A stretch of 64,000 bases of DNA, taken from IMG/VR virus record IMGVR_UViG_3300023174_000036, positions 248,001 to 312,000 of that record. One strand, given 5' to 3'. The translations under genes were made by a program, and so were the position numbers. Numbering within the stretch: the first letter of the stretch is position 1; each line of letters starts with the position of its first letter. This document shows, piece by piece, positions 2,665 to 45,450 of the stretch. The notes under the pieces were generated by a model. It did no database searches. It was not told the DNA's origin and saw only the letters and a list, made by a program, of their open reading frames with translations. The DNA is from a virus.

Positions 2665-4160
2665 CACAAGTACGCGATTGGAATTCTGTTTCTACCGGAG
2701 AACGATATTTTGAATTCTCCCCCAGTAGAGTCTCTACTTTTGTTGGAGTAGGCATGTTGGATCTCAGCCGAGACATTCCCAACAAGTTTGTAAGAAAACG
2801 AACGTTTGATATGACTTACTGGATGCTTAATCAAAGCCTGCAAATCAACTTGTGTAGGTACAGAGGATTTAGCGATAGTGTTAGCAAACTGTTAAACGAC
2901 AGTGCCGCGGCCGGAGATAACATTTGTATTATTGTTGCACAAGGCATGATGTTTCCAAAACTGTATAAGTTTATTGCCAAGGCTGTGGAGTATTTTAAAA
3001 AGAATCCTGAATTTTTTGTCATGGGTCACATCATGGCACGAGAAGATAGGTATCCTGGATTGCATCGCCAGTTGTTGGTAGTCAACATCAAGATGTGGAA
3101 ACAGCTGGGCAAGCCTGAATACTTGGAGCAGGGATATTTTTGGGATAGAAAACCAGAATATCCACAATACACTCTCAGTGAACAGACCATGAGTGCTGAC
3201 TATACTCCGTCTTGGATTCAAGCTGCCACCGGCACCGTAAAACCCACAGTGGTTGAAGAAGGAGCCAATTGGATTGCTCTAGCCCTAGAACATAACATAC
3301 GTATTGATAATTTTGATTTTGAAATGCGGGAGTGCAAAGCATTTTTATATCCGTATGATAATCCTGATTTATTAGAAAAAGTATGGAAAAATCTGCAAGA
3401 CGAAGAATCAGTTGATGCAATAAAAAATTATACTCAACGAGCATGGATACGAAAATTAGCATATCAGGAATATATTGAAAAGAATCGTGTGTATGCTTAT
3501 AATACAGAAAGACTGAGTGGAGAAGGCGTTCGAGCACCTAGTGCAGTTGACAGCATATTTTCAGCGGCAGCAGGATTTAAGACTATTGCATTGTTACGCA
3601 ATAACACATTCCACGAAAACACTGTTGTAAATTATTATGATTGGTGTGAATCCAGTTTGAATTTTAAAAAACATTTGTTAGAAACATGGAATGGTTTAAA
3701 TTTTGACGAGTGGTTGTTAGAGCACGATTTATCATATAATTTTTCCAGCACGTATCGTGGCAACTACAAAGAGTTTTGGCTTAGTGAAATCAAGAAAGAA
3801 TTTGGCAGTGCTGAACAGTTCAAAGAATTATGGGATCGTTATCGAAAACTAAAACATAATTATTTTGTTATTGATCTTGTTAACGAACCTGAAAAATTAT
3901 TCGAAGAAATTAACAAACAGTCCGGAGTCAAAGTATTGTGGACCACTAACATATGGGCCAGTATGATGTTGCATTGGAACGTAGAACCTGAGGTTGTGGA
4001 ACAAAAATATCTAAAATTTCAAAACCTAATACCCAACAATCTTGTGTTGTATGGACAAGATTATCTTGCACAGGATTTAGCTCATAGGATTCGCAGTGAA
4101 CGCTATTCAACACATCCCAGGTATGCAAGTACCAATAAATATGTTAACATGGGGATATGA
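2661..4160 (+). CDS. Unknown 499-aa protein in oxygenase operon
   Basis: Starts with an ATGA overlap with the upstream oxygenase, so probably translationally coupled. No family is certain. Residues about 110-170 hold a conserved-looking block (GHIMAR, then GLHRQ, then LLVVN-x-K-M-W-x-LG-x-P) that has the feel of a nucleotide-sugar-dependent transferase or other Rossmann-like enzyme. The C-terminal third (from about 330) is rich in W/Y and contains a YYDWCESS-N segment with alternating hydrophobic strands. There is no signal peptide or membrane segment. The context (2OG oxygenases before and after) suggests a tailoring pathway acting on a shared substrate. Confidence 0.55.
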   Translation: MTQVRDWNSVSTGERYFEFSPSRVSTFVGVGMLDLSRDIPNKFVRKRTFDMTYWMLNQSLQINLCRYRGFSDSVSKLLNDSAAAGDNICIIVAQGMMFPKLYKFIAKAVEYFKKNPEFFVMGHIMAREDRYPGLHRQLLVVNIKMWKQLGKPEYLEQGYFWDRKPEYPQYTLSEQTMSADYTPSWIQAATGTVKPTVVEEGANWIALALEHNIRIDNFDFEMRECKAFLYPYDNPDLLEKVWKNLQDEESVDAIKNYTQRAWIRKLAYQEYIEKNRVYAYNTERLSGEGVRAPSAVDSIFSAAAGFKTIALLRNNTFHENTVVNYYDWCESSLNFKKHLLETWNGLNFDEWLLEHDLSYNFSSTYRGNYKEFWLSEIKKEFGSAEQFKELWDRYRKLKHNYFVIDLVNEPEKLFEEINKQSGVKVLWTTNIWASMMLHWNVEPEVVEQKYLKFQNLIPNNLVLYGQDYLAQDLAHRIRSERYSTHPRYASTNKYVNMGI

Positions 4161-4161
4161 A

Positions 4162-4887
4162 ATGGAAAGATTCATTAAAAATTACGATCCAAAAGACATA
4201 ACACTTGATTTGCTGTATAACACAAACGACTGGGATCTTATAGAGCTTAACTACGAGCTGGATCCAGATAAACTAACAGAGTGGTGGGCTGATGTGCAAT
4301 CTAAATTCCCGCATTTGTTTTTTGGATTTAATGATAACACACACAAATTGGATTTAGAAAAAAGCAAAGAGTTAGTGGAGCAAGGATATTGCGGTTATTA
4401 TTGCGGGCCAATCGAAGGACTTACACTGGCATGGCCTGTGGATCGAGATGAACCGTTACCTCCTCCCACGCAGGCAAATTTAGAATTATTTCCCGAAGTC
4501 AATAAAGATACATTTTTCCACGATGCTAAAATAATGGAAAAATTTGAATATGGTTACTTTAAAGAAATGATCGAAACACTTGGAAGAGATGCGTTCCGTC
4601 AGGCGATTATAACCTTGCACTATCCTGGTATGTATATCAAACAGCACATTGACAGCAAAGTTTTAAAATTGCATATACCAATTGAAACAAATGAAAATGC
4701 TTGTTTTACATTTGGAGAAAATAGAGAGACTGCTACTTCATATCATTTCAAACTGGGTAAAATTTATATCCTCAATACAGGTGATTGGCACGGCACTAGC
4801 AATGACTCGAAATTTAGACGAGCACATATTATTACACGCATAGCCGATTGGCATATTTTAGATGTAATCAATATGACTAATGAATGA
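4162..4887 (+). CDS. 2OG-Fe(II) oxygenase
   Basis: 241 aa from ATG 4162, one nt after the upstream TGA; an in-frame ATG at 4141 lies inside the upstream gene and a GGGG sits about 10 nt before 4162, so 4162 is preferred. Iron ligands H162-x-D164 and H210, 2OG-binding arginine R219 or R220, and a P-G-M-Y-I before the HxD. It ends in an ATGA overlap with the next oxygenase. It shares its N-terminal D-W-D-x-I pattern with the minus-strand oxygenase at 9231-9962, so the two are likely paralogues. Confidence 0.8.
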   Translation: MERFIKNYDPKDITLDLLYNTNDWDLIELNYELDPDKLTEWWADVQSKFPHLFFGFNDNTHKLDLEKSKELVEQGYCGYYCGPIEGLTLAWPVDRDEPLPPPTQANLELFPEVNKDTFFHDAKIMEKFEYGYFKEMIETLGRDAFRQAIITLHYPGMYIKQHIDSKVLKLHIPIETNENACFTFGENRETATSYHFKLGKIYILNTGDWHGTSNDSKFRRAHIITRIADWHILDVINMTNE

Positions 4888-12850: not shown

Positions 12851-12879
12851 ATTATACTACTTATTCCGCAATCAGTCAA
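12851..12879 (-). promoter_or_regulatory. Sigma70 promoter
   Basis: TTGACT, 17 bp, TATAAT on the minus strand. The -35 box lies on the last codons and stop (GTTGACTGA) of the upstream phosphatase gene. Confidence 0.85.
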
Positions 12880-13339
12880 CCGACCTAAAAGTTCGCCAAT
12901 CATCAATGTTTGGCTTTTCGTCCGTATCATAGGTCCATCCTAAAGCCTTCATCATACGATGTTTGACTAGCAGGTTAGGACTACGGAAACGTTCCGTATC
13001 GTTGAATCCCATCATAACACCAACTTCACAAACCGCACCCGATCTGCAAACGCCAGCATAGCAATGAACCACTACATTCATACGATTTTCCAATGCATGT
13101 TGTAGCAAACGAACTAACTCTGCGGCCTGCTCATGACTACATTTCATTGTTTCCTCTAGCACGGAATCTTTTTCTTCTACATCCAAGAACTCAAAATTGT
13201 GACGCTCTTTGAACTGATGTTTAGGTTCAGGTCGCCAGCTAGCTGGATCAACAATACTGATCAACATGCTATTAGGGCCAGCATCGTGATGAAATCCTGT
13301 TGGAATATCAGCGGCGGCCACATTTTCAATCCAAGGCAT
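12872..13339 (-). CDS. Dual-specificity phosphatase-like protein
   Basis: 155 aa. Catalytic CX5R loop H-C-Y-A-G-V-C-R-S-G near residue 93-102, with an earlier aspartate-rich D-V-E-E-K-D that could supply the general acid. Perfect AAGGAGG ribosome site 6 nt before ATG. It follows the zinc-finger gene at 13349 by 9 nt and lies in the early block between promoters at 14280 and 12851. Substrate unknown; a second CX5R phosphatase is at 6083. Confidence 0.82.
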   Translation of the reverse strand: MPWIENVAAADIPTGFHHDAGPNSMLISIVDPASWRPEPKHQFKERHNFEFLDVEEKDSVLEETMKCSHEQAAELVRLLQHALENRMNVVVHCYAGVCRSGAVCEVGVMMGFNDTERFRSPNLLVKHRMMKALGWTYDTDEKPNIDDWRTFRSVD

Positions 13340-13348
13340 AATGCCTCC

Positions 13349-13594
13349 TTATCTTTTCATTCGTTCGCTTGCAATTTGACAATCAATGCACATCTTGCAA
13401 CCTTTGACTGCTAGTTGTCTTGCTTTGGGAATTTCTTCTCCACATTCATCGCAATGACTTAAACTAGGGCCTGTGGGCAATGCCGCCCTAATCCTTGCTA
13501 CTGCATCAGCGTTCGCAGTAGTTGATAACAGCTGAGCCATATCGGATTCTTCTAAGTTGTCGCCTTGAATGCTTTCATACTCTCTAATGGTCAT
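13349..13594 (-). CDS. DksA/TraR-type zinc-finger protein
   Basis: 81 aa. C-terminal four-cysteine finger C-D-E-C-x17-C-x-x-C (about residues 48-72) with the I-P-x-A-R segment typical of the TraR/DksA family, preceded by an acidic helical N-terminus. Short TraR-like proteins bind the secondary channel of RNA polymerase and change promoter choice. With the phage rpoZ at 16266 this would be a second polymerase-directed factor. AAGGAAAAATT-ATG start. Confidence 0.75.
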   Translation of the reverse strand: MTIREYESIQGDNLEESDMAQLLSTTANADAVARIRAALPTGPSLSHCDECGEEIPKARQLAVKGCKMCIDCQIASERMKR

Positions 13595-13603
13595 AATTTT
13601 TCC

Positions 13604-14065
13604 TTAAACAAACCAAATTTCTTCAAAACCTTCTTTGTTGGTAGGTTCTTCCCAATTGTCAATCATACCTTGTACAACTTCCCAAGGCACATCTTTACCT
13701 GGCCTGCTGGCTAAACGTTCTTTAAGAACGTCTACTGGCGGTGTACGGAACACAACTGCAATGTGCTTGTAATTTGGAAGCATATTAAACTTCCTAGCAC
13801 GACTTTTAACTGTGGTGCTAGTCTGATCCCAAATTACAGTATGTTCATGATCACGTGCAAATACTACTTGTTGAGCCATTAATTCTACTGCTGTAGGCAT
13901 ATAATCCTTAAACACTTCTGTGTAAGTCTTACCCCGTGTCTTTGCATAATCTTCTACAAACGGATCGGTACTGACCACAGTCAAACCCAAAGCCCAAATT
14001 TGATCTTTGATCCAAGTGCTTTTGCCTGCGGCAGGAACGCCAATTAACTGATAGCATACGGGCAT
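13604..14065 (-). CDS. P-loop kinase, polynucleotide-kinase-like
   Basis: 153 aa. Walker A G-V-P-A-A-G-K-S-T (residues 9-17), then the D-x-T-S/T segment W-D-Q-T-S-T-T (about 80-86) and an arginine-rich lid R-L-A-S-R-P-G-K (about 117-124), the layout of the AAA_33/T4 PNK N-terminal kinase group. No phosphatase domain is attached. Likely phosphorylates 5'-OH of RNA or DNA ends or a nucleoside. Its ATG overlaps the stop of the upstream 61-aa gene (TAATG). Confidence 0.8.
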   Translation of the reverse strand: MPVCYQLIGVPAAGKSTWIKDQIWALGLTVVSTDPFVEDYAKTRGKTYTEVFKDYMPTAVELMAQQVVFARDHEHTVIWDQTSTTVKSRARKFNMLPNYKHIAVVFRTPPVDVLKERLASRPGKDVPWEVVQGMIDNWEEPTNKEGFEEIWFV

Positions 14066-14250
14066 TAGATCAACCCTACCATTCTAAAATAATCATCATG
14101 AGCAACATAAAAATCTGTCTTTGGATCCCAGTACTTACCTTCTTTTGGATCATAATACAAAATCCAACCGTTAAAGTTAAACGGGCCCTCCAACTTTGGA
14201 ATTGGACCATAACCCTGCATATCTTGTTTTGGAAGAATCTTAAAACCCAT
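14065..14250 (-). CDS. Hypothetical protein, 61 aa
   Basis: Tryptophan/tyrosine-rich small protein with G-W-I-L-Y-Y-D-P-K-E-G-K-Y-W-D-P-K-T-D-F-Y, like one short WW/propeller-type hairpin. AGGAG before ATG; first gene after the promoter at 14280-14308. No function assigned. Confidence 0.7.
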   Translation of the reverse strand: MGFKILPKQDMQGYGPIPKLEGPFNFNGWILYYDPKEGKYWDPKTDFYVAHDDYFRMVGLI

Positions 14251-16101: not shown

Positions 16102-16178
16102 TGGAGTGGGTGACAGGACTCGAACCTGCATGGAACGGATTTGCAATCCGGGGCCTAACCATTCAGCGGCACACCCAC
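16102..16178 (-). tRNA. tRNA-Cys(GCA)
   Basis: Acceptor GTGGGTG/CACCCAC, anticodon loop TTGCAAA, T loop TTCGAGT, U73 discriminator as expected for Cys, and an encoded CCA. Last gene of the tRNA array in the direction of transcription. Confidence 0.96.
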
Positions 16179-28026: not shown

Positions 28027-28112
28027 TGGTGGAGTATCCTGGGATCGAACCAGGCGTGCCATTACGACGGCGGATTTACAGTCCACTGCATCACCATTGA
28101 TGCTTCTACTCC
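28027..28112 (-). tRNA. tRNA-Tyr(GUA)
   Basis: Class II; stem GTGGA/TCCGC with loop CTGTAAA; long variable arm; A73; CCA encoded. First tRNA after the promoter at 28121. Confidence 0.95.
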
Positions 28113-30195: not shown

Positions 30196-30224
30196 AGTAT
30201 ACATTAGTACTATCTATAGGTCAA
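30196..30224 (-). promoter_or_regulatory. Sigma70 promoter
   Basis: TTGACC, 17 bp, TATACT on the minus strand; its -35 lies directly after the T-run of the tmRNA terminator. Confidence 0.82.
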
Positions 30225-30250
30225 GAAAAAAGGCACTCGAAAGTGCCTTC
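30225..30250 (-). terminator. Terminator of tmRNA gene
   Basis: Minus-strand AAGGCACTT-TCG-AGTGCCTTTTTTC. Confidence 0.92.
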
Positions 30251-30606
30251 TTTGGTTATTGGTTTACAAGGCTAACCAGCCCCGGAGTTGCGGTTTCTTA
30301 GGCCGCCATTGCAAAGTCTGCATCATTAGCTGAAAAAGCTACTGAAGCTGGAACTTTGAAATACTCGAATGTATTTGCGTTTGCATTTACGAGTTTTGCT
30401 TGATTTACAGTCATCGCCTACTGAGTTGCCGTCTCCATTATCTCACCCTGTCGAAACCATGGCTGGCCCATCATAAACACATTAATGAGGAATCTAGGCG
30501 GATTGCAAGACCCAATGATTAATATGTTTATGGTGGACCAGGTGGGAGTCGAACCCACGTCCAGAATGCCTTCACTTTGAAGGGATTACAACTATCTCTT
30601 TAACCA
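30228..30606 (-). ncRNA. ssrA: tmRNA, circularly permuted (two-piece) form
   Basis: On the minus strand the acceptor piece comes first (about 30606-30531: GTGGG-TTCGACT-CCCAC T arm, CTGGTCC-A-CCA end), then a 61-nt intervening segment (30530-30470) closed by 14-bp arms ATAAACATATTAAT..ATTAATGTGTTTAT, then the coding piece (30469-about 30228) opening GGGCCAG-CCATGGTTTCGACAGGG. GGGCCAG pairs with CTGGTCC in a 7-bp acceptor stem. The tag frame follows GTAAAT: resume codon GCA, reading ANANTFEYFK... to ANDADFAMAA-TAA (28 codons to GCC, then TAA). The last ten residues resemble a normal 10-11 aa tag. The 5' side runs into the csp stop codon, so both may be on one transcript. Confidence 0.9.
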
Positions 30607-30608
30607 CA

Positions 30609-30812
30609 TTACTGTGGTTGAATATTTGCTGCCTGCAAGCCTTTTTGACCTTGTACTACATCAAATGATACTGATTGATTCTCTTGCAGAACTTTGAATC
30701 CTGATGTCTGAATCGCTGAGTAGTGAGCAAACAAATCCTCACCACCGTTGTCTGGAGTAATAAACCCAAAACCTTTGGTTTCATTAAACCATTTTACTTT
30801 ACCTGTTGCCAT
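30609..30812 (-). CDS. Cold-shock domain protein
   Basis: 67 aa. RNP1 K-G-F-G-F-I (13-18) and RNP2-like D-L-F-A-H-Y (27-32) of CspA-type RNA chaperones; full length. Its stop codon is in CACAGTAATGTG, which begins the tmRNA acceptor region. Sigma70 promoter at 30838 and AGGA site. Confidence 0.95.
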
Positions 30813-41437: not shown

Positions 41438-41444
41438 TATTTAT
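41438..41444 (-). promoter_or_regulatory. Late promoter box 8 nt before ATG
   Basis: CGATAAATA then TTTACACT then ATG on the minus strand. Confidence 0.5.
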
Positions 41445-42124
41445 CGTATTTCGGGGAACAAGCAATCCTGAATGAACACTTGCACATCTTCTTCACTTAG
41501 CCCTAAACTAACCATAACTTTGGGGGTATGCGGGTTTTGTTTTTGATTTTCACAGTAGTAATTCTGTGCTTCCGTGGTATCGTTGGCAGTGTTATTGGTT
41601 TCATCCACAGTTTCCAAGTAATGATTAACTAGAATATGTGCTAAACTTGCAATTTGTTTTAATTCGTTTTCATCGCTTACATTACCAGCGGCCACCATGT
41701 GTTCACTGAAAATACGTTCTGCCCAGTCGGGTAATTTGCGTTTTTTGTTCCATTCATAGCGACCAACTTCTTCGCCAAAATATTCAATCATGTGATGTTC
41801 TTTATCGCCAGCTGGGCTGTAGTCAATAAAGCATCCGGTAATTTTGTTCTTACCTGCTACGACATCAAATCCAAAGATAGGTGCTGGATTATGTGTATGT
41901 GGAAAAATGCAACAGTGCATCATCCACAACCCCTTGGTCTCACGAGCATCTACAACATCAATGTGTGCTCTGCGATAACGACTACTGGCCCATACTTTGT
42001 TAACCCATCCTGGTTGATTAAAACGATCCATACTGGGTTCGTTAATAATACTGCCAGTTGCATAAAACTGACTTTCAAAGTACTGTTCAATTTTGATCAG
42101 TGTATCCCATACATTACTCTCCAT
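41441..42124 (-). CDS. Ferredoxin-dependent bilin reductase (PcyX/PebS-like)
   Basis: 227 aa. The family core P-I-F-G-F-D-V-V-A-G-K-N-K-I-T-G-C-F-I-D-Y-S-P lies at about residues 78-100 (the aspartate in F-x-D is the catalytic-type residue), followed by the W-A-E-R-I-F-S region. Reduces biliverdin to a phyco-bilin using reduced ferredoxin. Directly downstream of, and overlapping by 11 nt, the heme oxygenase gene that makes biliverdin. Phage bilin reductases are known from cyanophages (PebS) and uncultured oceanic phages (PcyX); which product this one makes cannot be read by eye. Confidence 0.85.
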   Translation of the reverse strand: MESNVWDTLIKIEQYFESQFYATGSIINEPSMDRFNQPGWVNKVWASSRYRRAHIDVVDARETKGLWMMHCCIFPHTHNPAPIFGFDVVAGKNKITGCFIDYSPAGDKEHHMIEYFGEEVGRYEWNKKRKLPDWAERIFSEHMVAAGNVSDENELKQIASLAHILVNHYLETVDETNNTANDTTEAQNYYCENQKQNPHTPKVMVSLGLSEEDVQVFIQDCLFPEIR

Positions 42125-42656
42125 GATAAAGATCCTTCATCATTTTAATAGCGTATTCAAACGCCACACGAGCTTCGTCTCCAAGGTCGTCCGTGAGTTC
42201 TGCACGAATTGCGGCTTTGAGTGCATCAGCATCTTCAAACTGATAAAACTTACCGCTAGTATAAGGCACTTGTTTGGCAATAATTTGTCCGCCAAACAAG
42301 TCGCCCATGTGTCTGCAATACAAGTGTGCTTTGACCAAATGCTTACGTGCTGGATCGTTACACAATGCATGTAGATACGTTTGATACTCTAATGTGGCCG
42401 GAGTCAGATAGTGATAACTGCCATCGTCTAATTCATTAAAGTCTTGAACAATTGCCCGTAGTCTTGGTAATGTTGGCATGTTGTCAAAAAAACCTTGACG
42501 CTTGCCGTACCATTCGATTGGGTCGTAGATTGCTAGAAGATTGTACAAATAGTTTCTGTAGTCTGCTTTTTGAATTTTGCCACTTAGTAGTAACTGTGCA
42601 AATTTGGTTGTTTCTGCCTCATGATGGAGGTCTTTGGTAATTTCTCGTAAGCTCAT
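42114..42656 (-). CDS. ho1: Heme oxygenase
   Basis: 180 aa, shorter than the about 210-240 aa of bacterial/cyanobacterial enzymes. Proximal heme ligand in D-L-H-H-E-A-E (about residues 10-16) and the distal helix H-L-Y-C-R-H-M-G-D-L-F-G-G-Q (G-D-x-x-G-G-Q signature, about 113-124). Cleaves heme to biliverdin, iron and CO. Overlaps clpS upstream by 4 nt (ATGA type) and the bilin reductase downstream. Confidence 0.92.
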   Translation of the reverse strand: MSLREITKDLHHEAETTKFAQLLLSGKIQKADYRNYLYNLLAIYDPIEWYGKRQGFFDNMPTLPRLRAIVQDFNELDDGSYHYLTPATLEYQTYLHALCNDPARKHLVKAHLYCRHMGDLFGGQIIAKQVPYTSGKFYQFEDADALKAAIRAELTDDLGDEARVAFEYAIKMMKDLYHGE

Positions 42657-42955
42657 TCTTCTTCCAATTTGATTTGGAGAGGATGATTATTAGTACGAGC
42701 TTGATTGGTTGCTTCAACTGCTTTGGCTTCAGCAATTTCAAAACTATAAACACCAGCAATTCCGCTACCAGTTTCATGCACTTCTGCCATCACATGATGT
42801 GCAGTATCTGGATTATGTTTAAAAATTTCAATCAATACCGAAACAACAAAATCCATTGGAGTTGAATCATCGTTGAGCAGGATAACCTTCCATCTTTTAG
42901 GTTCGCTTACTACTACTTTAATTTTCTCATCTAGTTGAATATCCGTGCCTGCCAT
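42653..42955 (-). CDS. clpS: ClpS adaptor
   Basis: 100 aa. Core K-V-I-L-L-N-D-D-x-T-P-M-D-F-V-V-x-V-L (about 24-42) with the N-D-D motif and a hydrophobic pocket residue set for N-degron recognition; A-H-x-V-M-x-E-V-H follows. Delivers N-end-rule substrates to ClpAP. With tmRNA and DnaK/Hsp20 it forms a phage-encoded protein-quality set. It heads the clpS-ho1-bilin reductase overlap chain. Confidence 0.9.
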   Translation of the reverse strand: MAGTDIQLDEKIKVVVSEPKRWKVILLNDDSTPMDFVVSVLIEIFKHNPDTAHHVMAEVHETGSGIAGVYSFEIAEAKAVEATNQARTNNHPLQIKLEEE

Positions 42956-43003: not shown

Positions 43004-43429
43004 TTATTTAATTTCAATAGTGCGTGGTTTGAGCGCATCTGGTACAACTCGTTTGATATCGATTTGTAACATACCGTTATCAACTTTTGCACCTACAACT
43101 TCCATATACTCGGCAAGAGTAAATGTTTGCTCAAAGTCACGAGCTGCCAATCCACGATGCAAGTATTCAATACCCACATCTTTGTTTGGACGATTCATAA
43201 CTCCTCTAATTGTCAGTTGATCTTGATCAACTTCAACTGCAATTTCTTCCTTGGTAAAACCTGCGACCGCAACTTCAATTGCATAGCTGGTATCGCTATA
43301 CTTAACAATGTTGTGGGGAGGGTAGTTACCATTTTGGTGACTTGGTACGTTAAAGTAACGATCAAATCCTACCAGTGCTTTGCTCAGTTGTGCCAAAGCG
43401 GCTGTGTCTATAGTTCTAAGTTGGTTCAT
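43004..43429 (-). CDS. Small heat-shock protein (Hsp20/IbpA-like)
   Basis: 141 aa. Alpha-crystallin domain: A-V-A-G-F-T-K-E-E-I-A-V-E-V-D, G-I/L-A-A-R-D-F-E-Q-T-F, and V-D-N-G-M-L-Q-I-D-I near the C-terminus, of the IbpA subgroup; ends with a R-T-I-E-I-K (I-x-I anchor). Holds unfolded proteins for DnaK. The leader shares a module with dnaK (see 43434-43482). Confidence 0.93.
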   Translation of the reverse strand: MNQLRTIDTAALAQLSKALVGFDRYFNVPSHQNGNYPPHNIVKYSDTSYAIEVAVAGFTKEEIAVEVDQDQLTIRGVMNRPNKDVGIEYLHRGLAARDFEQTFTLAEYMEVVGAKVDNGMLQIDIKRVVPDALKPRTIEIK

Positions 43430-43496: not shown

Positions 43497-45401
43497 TTAC
43501 TTCTTGTCTGCGGGGTCAACCTCTGTGAAGGCCGCATCCACAGTTTGTTCACCACCTTCAGTTTGTGGTGCATTTTTGGCCTGCTCAGCGGCTTGTTTTT
43601 TAGACATAACCGGATTGGCCGCTTCAAAAAATGCAGTTAACGAAGTAGTGATAGCTTCTACATCTTCACCAGCAATTGCTGTTTGCACAGATGCCAATGC
43701 TGTTTCGTATGCAGTCTTTTCTTCTTCAGTCAACTGATCTTTGAATTCTTCAAAGTCTTTCTTAACACCGTGCGTGGTAGATTCTGCATTGTTACGTGCA
43801 TCAATCAACTCACGAGCTTTTTTATCAGACTCTGCATTTTCTTCAGCTTCCTGTACCATGCGTTGGATCTCAGCTTCGGTTAATCCCGAGTCTGACTTAA
43901 TAGTGATATTGTTTTCTTTACCAGTATTTTTATCTTTAGCACTGATTTTCATAATGCCGTTGGCATCGATATCAAATGTAACTTCAATTTGTGGCATACC
44001 GCGTGGTGCAGGAGCAATGCCATCCAACTTGAACTCACCCAATGCTTTGTTGTATTTGAACAATTCACGTTCACCTTGTGCTACCTTGATGTCAACAGCT
44101 GGTTGATTGTCGTCCGCAGTACTGAATGTTTGACTAGCTTTGGTTGGGATAGTTGTGTTCTTTTGAATCAACTTGGTAAACACACCACCCATTGTTTCAA
44201 TACCTAGTGATAATGGAGTAACGTCCAACAATAGAACGTCTGTCTTATCGCCTGCCAACACAGCACCTTGTACTGCGGCACCAGCGGCAACTGCTTCGTC
44301 TGGGTTAACATCTTTGCGTGGCGCCTTGCCAAACAGTTTCTCAACTGCTTCTTGTACTTTAGGCATACGTGTTTGTCCGCCAACTAGGATAACTTCATCA
44401 ATGTCAGCGGAAGTCACTTTAGCGTCCTTCATAGCAATCTTACATGGCTCAATTGATCGCTCGATAAGTTGCTCAACCATTGATTCAAACTTAGCACGAC
44501 TAATAGTTACATTCATGTGCTTAGGACCGCTTGCATCTGCGGTAATGTACGGCAAGTTAACACTGGTACTTGCTGTGCTAGACAACTCAATCTTGGCTTT
44601 CTCAGCTGATTCTTTCAAGCGTTGCAGAGCCAACATGTCTTTCTTCAAATCAATGCCAGAATCTTTCTTAAACTCGTCAACCAAATGATCCATGATAACT
44701 TGGTCAAAGTCTTCACCACCTAGGAATGTGTCGCCGTTTGTGCTTAGTACTTCGATTTGTTTATCGCCGTCGATATTCGCGATTTCAATGATCGAGATGT
44801 CGAAAGTACCACCACCAAGGTCGTAAACAGCAATTTTCCTATCTCTTTTATCAGCTTTATCAACGCCATAAGCAAGAGCTGCCGCAGTAGGCTCATTAAT
44901 AATACGGAGTACTTCCAAACCGGCAATGCGGCCAGCATCTTTAGTTGCTTGTCTTTGGCTGTCGTTAAAGTACGCAGGAACTGTGATAACTGCTTGGGTA
45001 ACTTCATGACCTAAATAGTCCTCCGCGGTCTTTTTCATTTTACGCAACACTTCAGCTGACACTTGCTGTGGTGCAAGTTTCTCGCCGTTAGCTTCGATCC
45101 ACGCATCACCGTTGTCAGCTTTGATGATTGAATAAGGCATTAGATCAATATCTTTTTGCACAGCTGATTCGTCAAACTTGCGGCCAATGAGACGCTTGCT
45201 TGCGTAGATTGTGTTTTTGGGGTTTGTGACTGATTGTCGTTTTGCTGTGGCACCTACTAGAATTTCTTTTTCTGTATATGCAACGATTGATGGTGTTGTT
45301 CTAGCACCTTCGCTGTTTGGGATTACTTTAGCAACTCCGCCTTCTAGGATTGCTACACAGCTATTTGTTGTACCTAAATCGATACCGATGATTTTGCTCA
45401 T
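43497..45401 (-). CDS. dnaK: Hsp70 chaperone DnaK
   Basis: 634 aa from ATG 45401 ([13 protein letters not shown]); an upstream frame extension is not needed, AAAGGAG is 6-7 nt away. ATPase phosphate loops G-I-D-L-G-T-T and [10 protein letters not shown], linker [13 protein letters not shown], substrate domain and helical lid with Q-A/K-rich end. Complete and full length, unlike truncated viral versions. No DnaJ or GrpE in the window, so host cochaperones would be used. Confidence 0.97.
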
Positions 45402-45405
45402 AATT

Positions 45406-45450
45406 TTCTCCTTTAAATTAAGCAAGAATATGTAAAACCCTTACGGCGTT
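45406..45450 (-). promoter_or_regulatory. dnaK 5' leader module
   Basis: Hairpin GTAAAAC..GTTTTAC (about 45431-45453) then ATTCTTGCTTAATTTAAAGGAGAA, the same layout as the hsp20 leader. A late-like box ATAAATA lies at 45460-45466. Confidence 0.5.

Follow-up and report, generated by a model that had tools for sequence, protein, structure and literature searches.

The minus strand of a 356-kb phage genome carries, at ~30226-30623 of the window, a circularly permuted (two-piece) tmRNA gene of betaproteobacterial type. As a rule, ssrA tags are degrons that are short and near-universal; the tag frame of this gene comprises 28 codons. We consider it likely that the gene is a functional phage ssrA, that the proteins it tags are degraded partly by the ClpA-ClpP protease of the phage, and that the extended part of the tag is a recognition element. 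The window is the whole 64,000-nucleotide stretch that was analyzed, corresponding to positions 248001-312000 of a virus record of 356,312 bp (labeled G000).

Structure of the permuted tmRNA gene

ARAGORN calls a permuted tmRNA with the tag ANANTFEYFKVPASVAFSANDADFAMAA at 30207-30623 on the minus strand. In agreement with this call, the Rfam model RF04321 (tmRNA_permuted) matches over its full length (model positions 1-213) with 136.4 bits against a gathering cut-off of 47, and RF01850 (beta_tmRNA) matches with 126.4 bits against a cut-off of 84. The sequence-only reading of this DNA had proposed that the phage encodes a circularly permuted tmRNA whose tag has 28 residues, and had suggested a search with covariance models as a check; the identification is thus confirmed, with both models far over their cut-offs. 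In one trait the gene departs from the beta_tmRNA class, since the tag is ~10 residues long in the model consensus and 28 residues long here. The alanine identity pair G3:U70 and the encoded CCA are both present in the tmRNA sequence, and the tag frame is open, with a resume context and a stop codon. The locus comprises the following features:

30609..30812, minus strand: gene for a cold-shock domain protein, immediately 5' of the tmRNA (PF00313, 8e-30)
30602..30619, minus strand: hairpin AACCACA-GUAA-UGUGGUU between the cold-shock stop codon and the tmRNA 5' end (z -3.05)
30531..30593, minus strand: acceptor piece with the T arm and the acceptor-stem 3' half CTGGTCC (RF04321 model positions from 1; sequence)
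30534-30531, minus strand: encoded ACCA of the acceptor piece (sequence)
30470..30530, minus strand: intervening segment of 61 nt with a long closing helix, predicted to be cut out (z -6.05)
30250..30469, minus strand: coding piece with the acceptor-stem 5' half, pseudoknot region, tag frame and 3' domain (RF01850, RF04321 and an alignment of 11 relatives; 3' limit approximate)
30469-30463, minus strand: acceptor-stem 5' half GGGCCAG, start of the coding piece
30298..30384, minus strand: tag frame ANANTFEYFKVPASVAFSANDADFAMAA, 28 codons and UAA (ARAGORN; first GCA preceded by A at -4; relatives)
30226..30252, minus strand: intrinsic terminator AGGCACT-TTCG-AGTGCCT followed by a T run (fold z -5.41)

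The intervening segment and its closing arms had been noticed before; the segment lies at 30530-30470, and the arms AUAAACAUAUUAAU and AUUAAUGUGUUUAU form a long helix that none of 200 shuffles equaled (z = -6.05). A terminator-like stem was separately called at 30230-30249. The gap between the end of the cold-shock gene and the acceptor piece is ~15 bases, and a promoter-like TTGCTA-17-TATAAT lies upstream of the cold-shock gene at 30866-30838. A cold-shock gene is likewise directly upstream of the tmRNA in one related genome (G005), and it is probable that the two genes are on one shared transcript. Elsewhere in the window, ARAGORN finds 27 tRNA genes on the minus strand between 16105 and 28112, and two further tRNAs (16105-16178 and 28030-28112) are called by Rfam only.

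The acceptor stem across the permutation covaries in relatives. In the window phage it was found as expected, with seven base pairs (GGGCCAG/CTGGTCC) that include the G3:U70 wobble typical of alanine acceptors. Among phage relatives, 15 distinct stem combinations are paired at all variable positions (1.00), compared with a mean of 0.48 and a maximum of 0.73 when the 5' halves were re-dealt in 1,000 shuffles; the pattern used to collect these relatives fixed only the stem ends (GGG/TCC and one G-C pair) and left three positions free. The earlier reading had named two outcomes that would refute it, the lack of a covariance-model match and the lack of pairing in relatives; both were examined and neither refuted it. 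One viral gene (L221) is almost identical to window positions 30210-30600 in the tag and 3' domain and has a different tRNA-like domain, whose acceptor stem GGGGATG/CATCTCC remains paired throughout. It is a mosaic indicating exchange between the gene's two halves, with the stem kept.

Long tags form viral families

Over 60 distinct tmRNA genes from viruses encode tags of about 22-33 residues. These tags fall into three families, which we designate by their motifs as TFEYF, TFDF...FTGN (family 2) and GEVTV (family 3). The window phage belongs to the first (A[NKT]A[NS]TFEYF...), while the other two start with ANADTFDFSAMSFTGNTV... and AKASTGEVTVSGKNVKFSAR... The long tags are in-frame length variants with the C-termini A[ILM]AA, LVAA or LAV. 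A tag-blind scan for permuted tRNA-like domains across 2.9 million viral contigs detected at least 101 distinct tmRNA genes. Among the matches listed, tag lengths are bimodal, with 75 tags of 10-15 residues and 26 tags of 21-33 residues, two of which (L028 and L077) look like ARAGORN frame errors. Additional long-tag genes came from a separate motif scan.

The long-tag DNA motif was also searched in 84,980 bacterial and archaeal genomes, one per species. This main negative result, which is specific to the motif and so leaves room for other bacterial long tags, yielded 12 matches, none of them a tmRNA. None of the 12 sites receives a tmRNA call from ARAGORN, and a whole-genome search with RF04321 exceeded the cut-off only in Roseibium, at a different site and with a short tag. 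No match was obtained in a class-level pattern scan of 369 gammaproteobacterial genomes, in a search of viral contigs for the exact back-translated C-terminal tag (GCTAAYGAY...), or in a tblastn comparison of the 28-residue tag with annotated phages. The whole tmRNA had only partial blastn matches in annotated phages, the best being XacN1.

In the TFDF...FTGN family, which has the best sampling, synonymous changes greatly exceed amino-acid changes: the ratio pN/pS is 0.18 (0.06-0.35, codon resampling) for codons 8-18, which lay outside the search pattern, indicating that the extension is translated and constrained as a peptide. The ratio is not clearly below 1 in the family of the window phage (0.50, 0.20-1.08, from few sequences) or in the GEVTV family (0.64, 0.39-1.11).

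Two further occurrences of permuted tmRNAs were recorded. In one gammaproteobacterial order the permuted form is patchy, with a strong match in five of 85 genomes (G050, G478, G440, G443 and G436) and the ARAGORN tag ANDDNFEVALAA in two of the five. Sinorhizobium phage Phosso (L325, 1501-2103, minus strand) has a permuted alpha-type tmRNA that was missed by ARAGORN; its intervening segment spans several hundred bases, and its tag is apparently ANDNVSTKVALAA.

Reading frame of the tag

In E. coli, U85/A86 set the frame of the tag, and the A sits four bases before the resume codon (PMC2481249). In the phage gene the first GCA is preceded by UAAAU, with A at -4, whereas the internal GCU that would open a tag of ANDADFAMAA is preceded by UUUCA and lacks this A; hence the 28-codon frame is the expected one, and the alternative resume codon considered in the sequence-only reading is disfavored. 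All 67 distinct long-tag genes have this A at -4 (UAAAU in 64, UAAAA in three); since GUAAA belonged to the collecting pattern, the count serves as an illustration of the rule, not as separate proof.

The addition of only the last ten residues, with the upstream 18 codons acting as an RNA spacer or structure, is suggested by the resemblance of ANDADFAMAA to a complete betaproteobacterial tag (the consensus frame of RF01850 is ANDEHFAMAA). However, relatives keep UAAAU(GCA) before the first codon, many long tags have no embedded short tag (the GEVTV family and TFDF...SGKSKVALAA), family 2 shows protein-level constraint on the frame, and the tag region folds weakly (z -1.57). We therefore regard a ten-residue tag as very unlikely. 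A hairpin within the tag frame (AAATAC/GTATTT) is disrupted in relatives without compensation and was dropped as a candidate.

Clp proteins and chaperones of the jumbo-phage clade

The sequence-only reading had correctly listed a phage ClpS; ClpA and ClpP of the same phage were overlooked there. The respective genes are as follows:

42653..42955, minus strand: ClpS adaptor (PF02617, 2e-29; N-degron residues NDD and H conserved relative to E. coli ClpS)
43004..43429, minus strand: Hsp20 small heat-shock protein of the ClpS cluster (PF00011, 3e-16)
43497..45425, minus strand: DnaK chaperone of the ClpS cluster (PF00012, 4e-258; NCBIfam DnaK over cut-off)
G000:172688-174961 (record coordinates): ClpA, 758 aa (TIGR02639, 885 bits, under the NCBI equivalog cut-off of 993 bits)
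G000:225627-226235 (record coordinates): ClpP (NF001368, 299 bits, over cut-off; catalytic Ser and His motifs conserved)

ClpA contains both sets of Walker A/B motifs, the KYRG and GYVG pore loops and the IGF loop. One genome thus combines the tmRNA with a complete ClpA (ATPase and pore motifs) and a ClpP with its catalytic residues. The DnaK-Hsp20-ClpS cluster is conserved in four genomes (G000, G001, G005 and G007). Two overlapping minus-strand genes beside ClpS encode a ferredoxin-dependent bilin reductase (41441-42124) and a heme oxygenase (42114-42656); this pair is kept beside ClpS in G001, G005 and G007, so that a phage bilin pathway sits inside the proteostasis cluster.

In the terminase tree, G000-G007 and G404 form one clade of jumbo phages (records of 265-383 kb), while short-tag phages of 100-170 kb fall outside it; the phages with long tags thus group in a single jumbo clade, with XacN1 as a distant relation. 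Across eight clade genomes, whose records may be incomplete, ClpP was found in all eight (divergent in G005), ClpS in seven and ClpA in six; a search with the E. coli SspB detected no homolog in these genomes. ClpX, searched with the E. coli protein, occurs only in G002 (12857-14068), G004 (182393-183610) and G404 (146183-147403), in each case beside Hsp20 and ClpS. ClpX is thereby confined to the GEVTV/short-tag subclade, and the TFEYF subclade is without ClpX and mostly has ClpA. ClpS co-occurs with the tmRNA in 14 of 20 long-tag and four of 20 short-tag records, a difference in which genome size and ancestry are confounding factors and which is no proof of a link. We found no SmpB gene in the record of the window or in 14 others with such tmRNAs (records may be incomplete), in line with the earlier proposal that the tmRNA rides on SmpB of the host, which it must borrow if the phage has none.

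The long-tag trait can be lost or replaced, as seen in G404, which lies inside the clade and has Clp genes but encodes the short tag ANDEQFLMVA. XacN1 (AP018399; 384 kb; host Xanthomonas citri), a long-branched relative in the terminase tree, has a permuted tmRNA (RF04321, 123 bits) that is not annotated in its record. Like the window phage it is a jumbo phage, and its tag ANANTFDYALAA begins with the same ANANTF[DE]Y motif; unlike the window phage, it has a tag of only 12 residues and a distant terminase, and no ClpS was found in it. This comparison suggests, without proving it, an old ANANTF[DE]Y start, with the longer tails arising later. The analyzed stretch of XacN1 (L235) holds the permuted tmRNA at 2828-3127 and a GOLLD RNA at 4167-4580, both unannotated.

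Proposed function and alternative explanations

In trans-translation, SmpB and EF-Tu accompany alanine-charged tmRNA into stalled ribosomes, where it appends a C-terminal degron that is taken by ClpXP and ClpAP. For the phage gene we infer the following processing, charging, tagging and degradation route. A precursor, probably common with the cold-shock gene, would be cut into the acceptor and coding pieces, which would stay joined by pairing of the acceptor stem, and the product would be charged by the host alanyl-tRNA synthetase (G3:U70 is present). Stalling of ribosomes on broken mRNA is common while a phage degrades host transcripts, and host EF-Tu and SmpB would deliver the tmRNA to such ribosomes. 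Translation would resume at the first GCA, add 28 residues and stop at UAA; the C-terminal ...FAMAA would act as the degron, and the tagged fragments would pass to Clp proteases, at least partly to the phage's own ClpA-ClpP. In such a division of labor the phage would provide the tmRNA and the protease, borrow SmpB and the charging enzyme, and regain ribosomes and amino acids. The conserved N-terminal extension may be a lineage-specific element that tunes the choice of protease or adaptor; it most likely serves in recognition by an unfoldase or an adaptor. In E. coli, ssrA-tagged proteins are taken by both ClpAP and ClpXP, and ClpS diverts ClpAP from them in E. coli and Leptospira (PMC12493166), so that the phage ClpS may oppose degradation of the tagged products. 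A bolder proposal, that the clade runs a private quality control in which the virus-only long tag of its own tmRNA is read better by phage ClpA-ClpP than by host proteases, is tentative and rather doubtful; if true, the phage would decide which truncated proteins get recycled during infection.

The extension might instead send tagged proteins to another host protease, such as Lon, and not to ClpAP or ClpXP. In Mesoplasma florum an atypical, longer tag of different sequence shifts protease specificity and is read by Lon (PMC8138137), which provides a precedent for tag-protease co-evolution, and aromatic and beta-branched residues abound in the phage extensions. That system, however, is bacterial and belongs to an organism without ClpXP (PMC8138137), whereas the window phage encodes ClpA and ClpP. 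Moreover, the phage tags retain Clp-type C-termini (AMAA, ALAA, AIAA), and an E. coli Lon query of the eight clade genomes (records may be incomplete) picked up nothing beyond ClpA, through weak AAA+ similarity. Routing to Lon or a similar protease is therefore unlikely. We give still less credence to a main role in interference with host trans-translation by titration of SmpB, with tagging secondary. The tmRNA of phage DS6A, which consists of a tRNA-like domain only, inhibits endogenous tmRNA (PMC11915505; PMC4131195), and the lack of a detected phage SmpB would suit such a decoy, but a decoy needs neither the full constrained tag frame nor the Clp-type C-terminus and 3' domain that are retained here. 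The betaproteobacterial type of the tmRNA could also point to a neutral passenger or a misassembled host ssrA. This explanation is barely credible and already contradicted by conservation across viral contigs: one tag family recurs in many independent contigs and tracks the terminase clade, and its motif is absent from tmRNAs of the 84,980 species.

Relation to known systems and significance

The phage gene resembles betaproteobacterial permuted ssrA (RF01850/RF04321) in gene order, the acceptor stem across the permutation, the UAAAUGC resume context, the pseudoknot region and the terminator; it differs in being carried by a phage and in its 28-residue tag versus about 10. Two-piece tmRNAs are likewise phage-borne in methylophage Melnitz and Pelagibacter phages, where they are of alphaproteobacterial type, unlike that of the window, and 53 of 133 phage tmRNA structures are two-piece (PMC9004378). 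The tmRNA of Pelagibacter phage Mosig encodes the short tag GEDNFALAA. Huge phages with both tmRNA and SmpB have been reported (PMC7162821), and according to the tmRNA database paper the most frequent tag length is 10 residues, with tags of 2 residues also noted there. ClpA, ClpP and ClpS are already known in jumbo phages (PMC7824862, PMC6102473), including Agrobacterium phage Atu_ph07, which shares all three with the window phage and also encodes ClpX and ClpB (PMC6102473); these two papers make no mention of tmRNA. In a literature search that covered few subscription papers, we came across no description of conserved phage tags of 22-33 residues, nor of such tags combined with Clp proteins of a phage. 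Two-piece tmRNAs and Clp proteins of phages were each known before; what appear to be new are the conserved long tags and the presence of a phage Clp protease set alongside them.

The long tags would help to trace this jumbo-phage lineage and would be potential new degrons for synthetic biology. The occurrence of virus-only tag families of 22-33 residues together with ClpA, ClpP and ClpS makes it a testable question whether phages rewrite the degradation code during infection.
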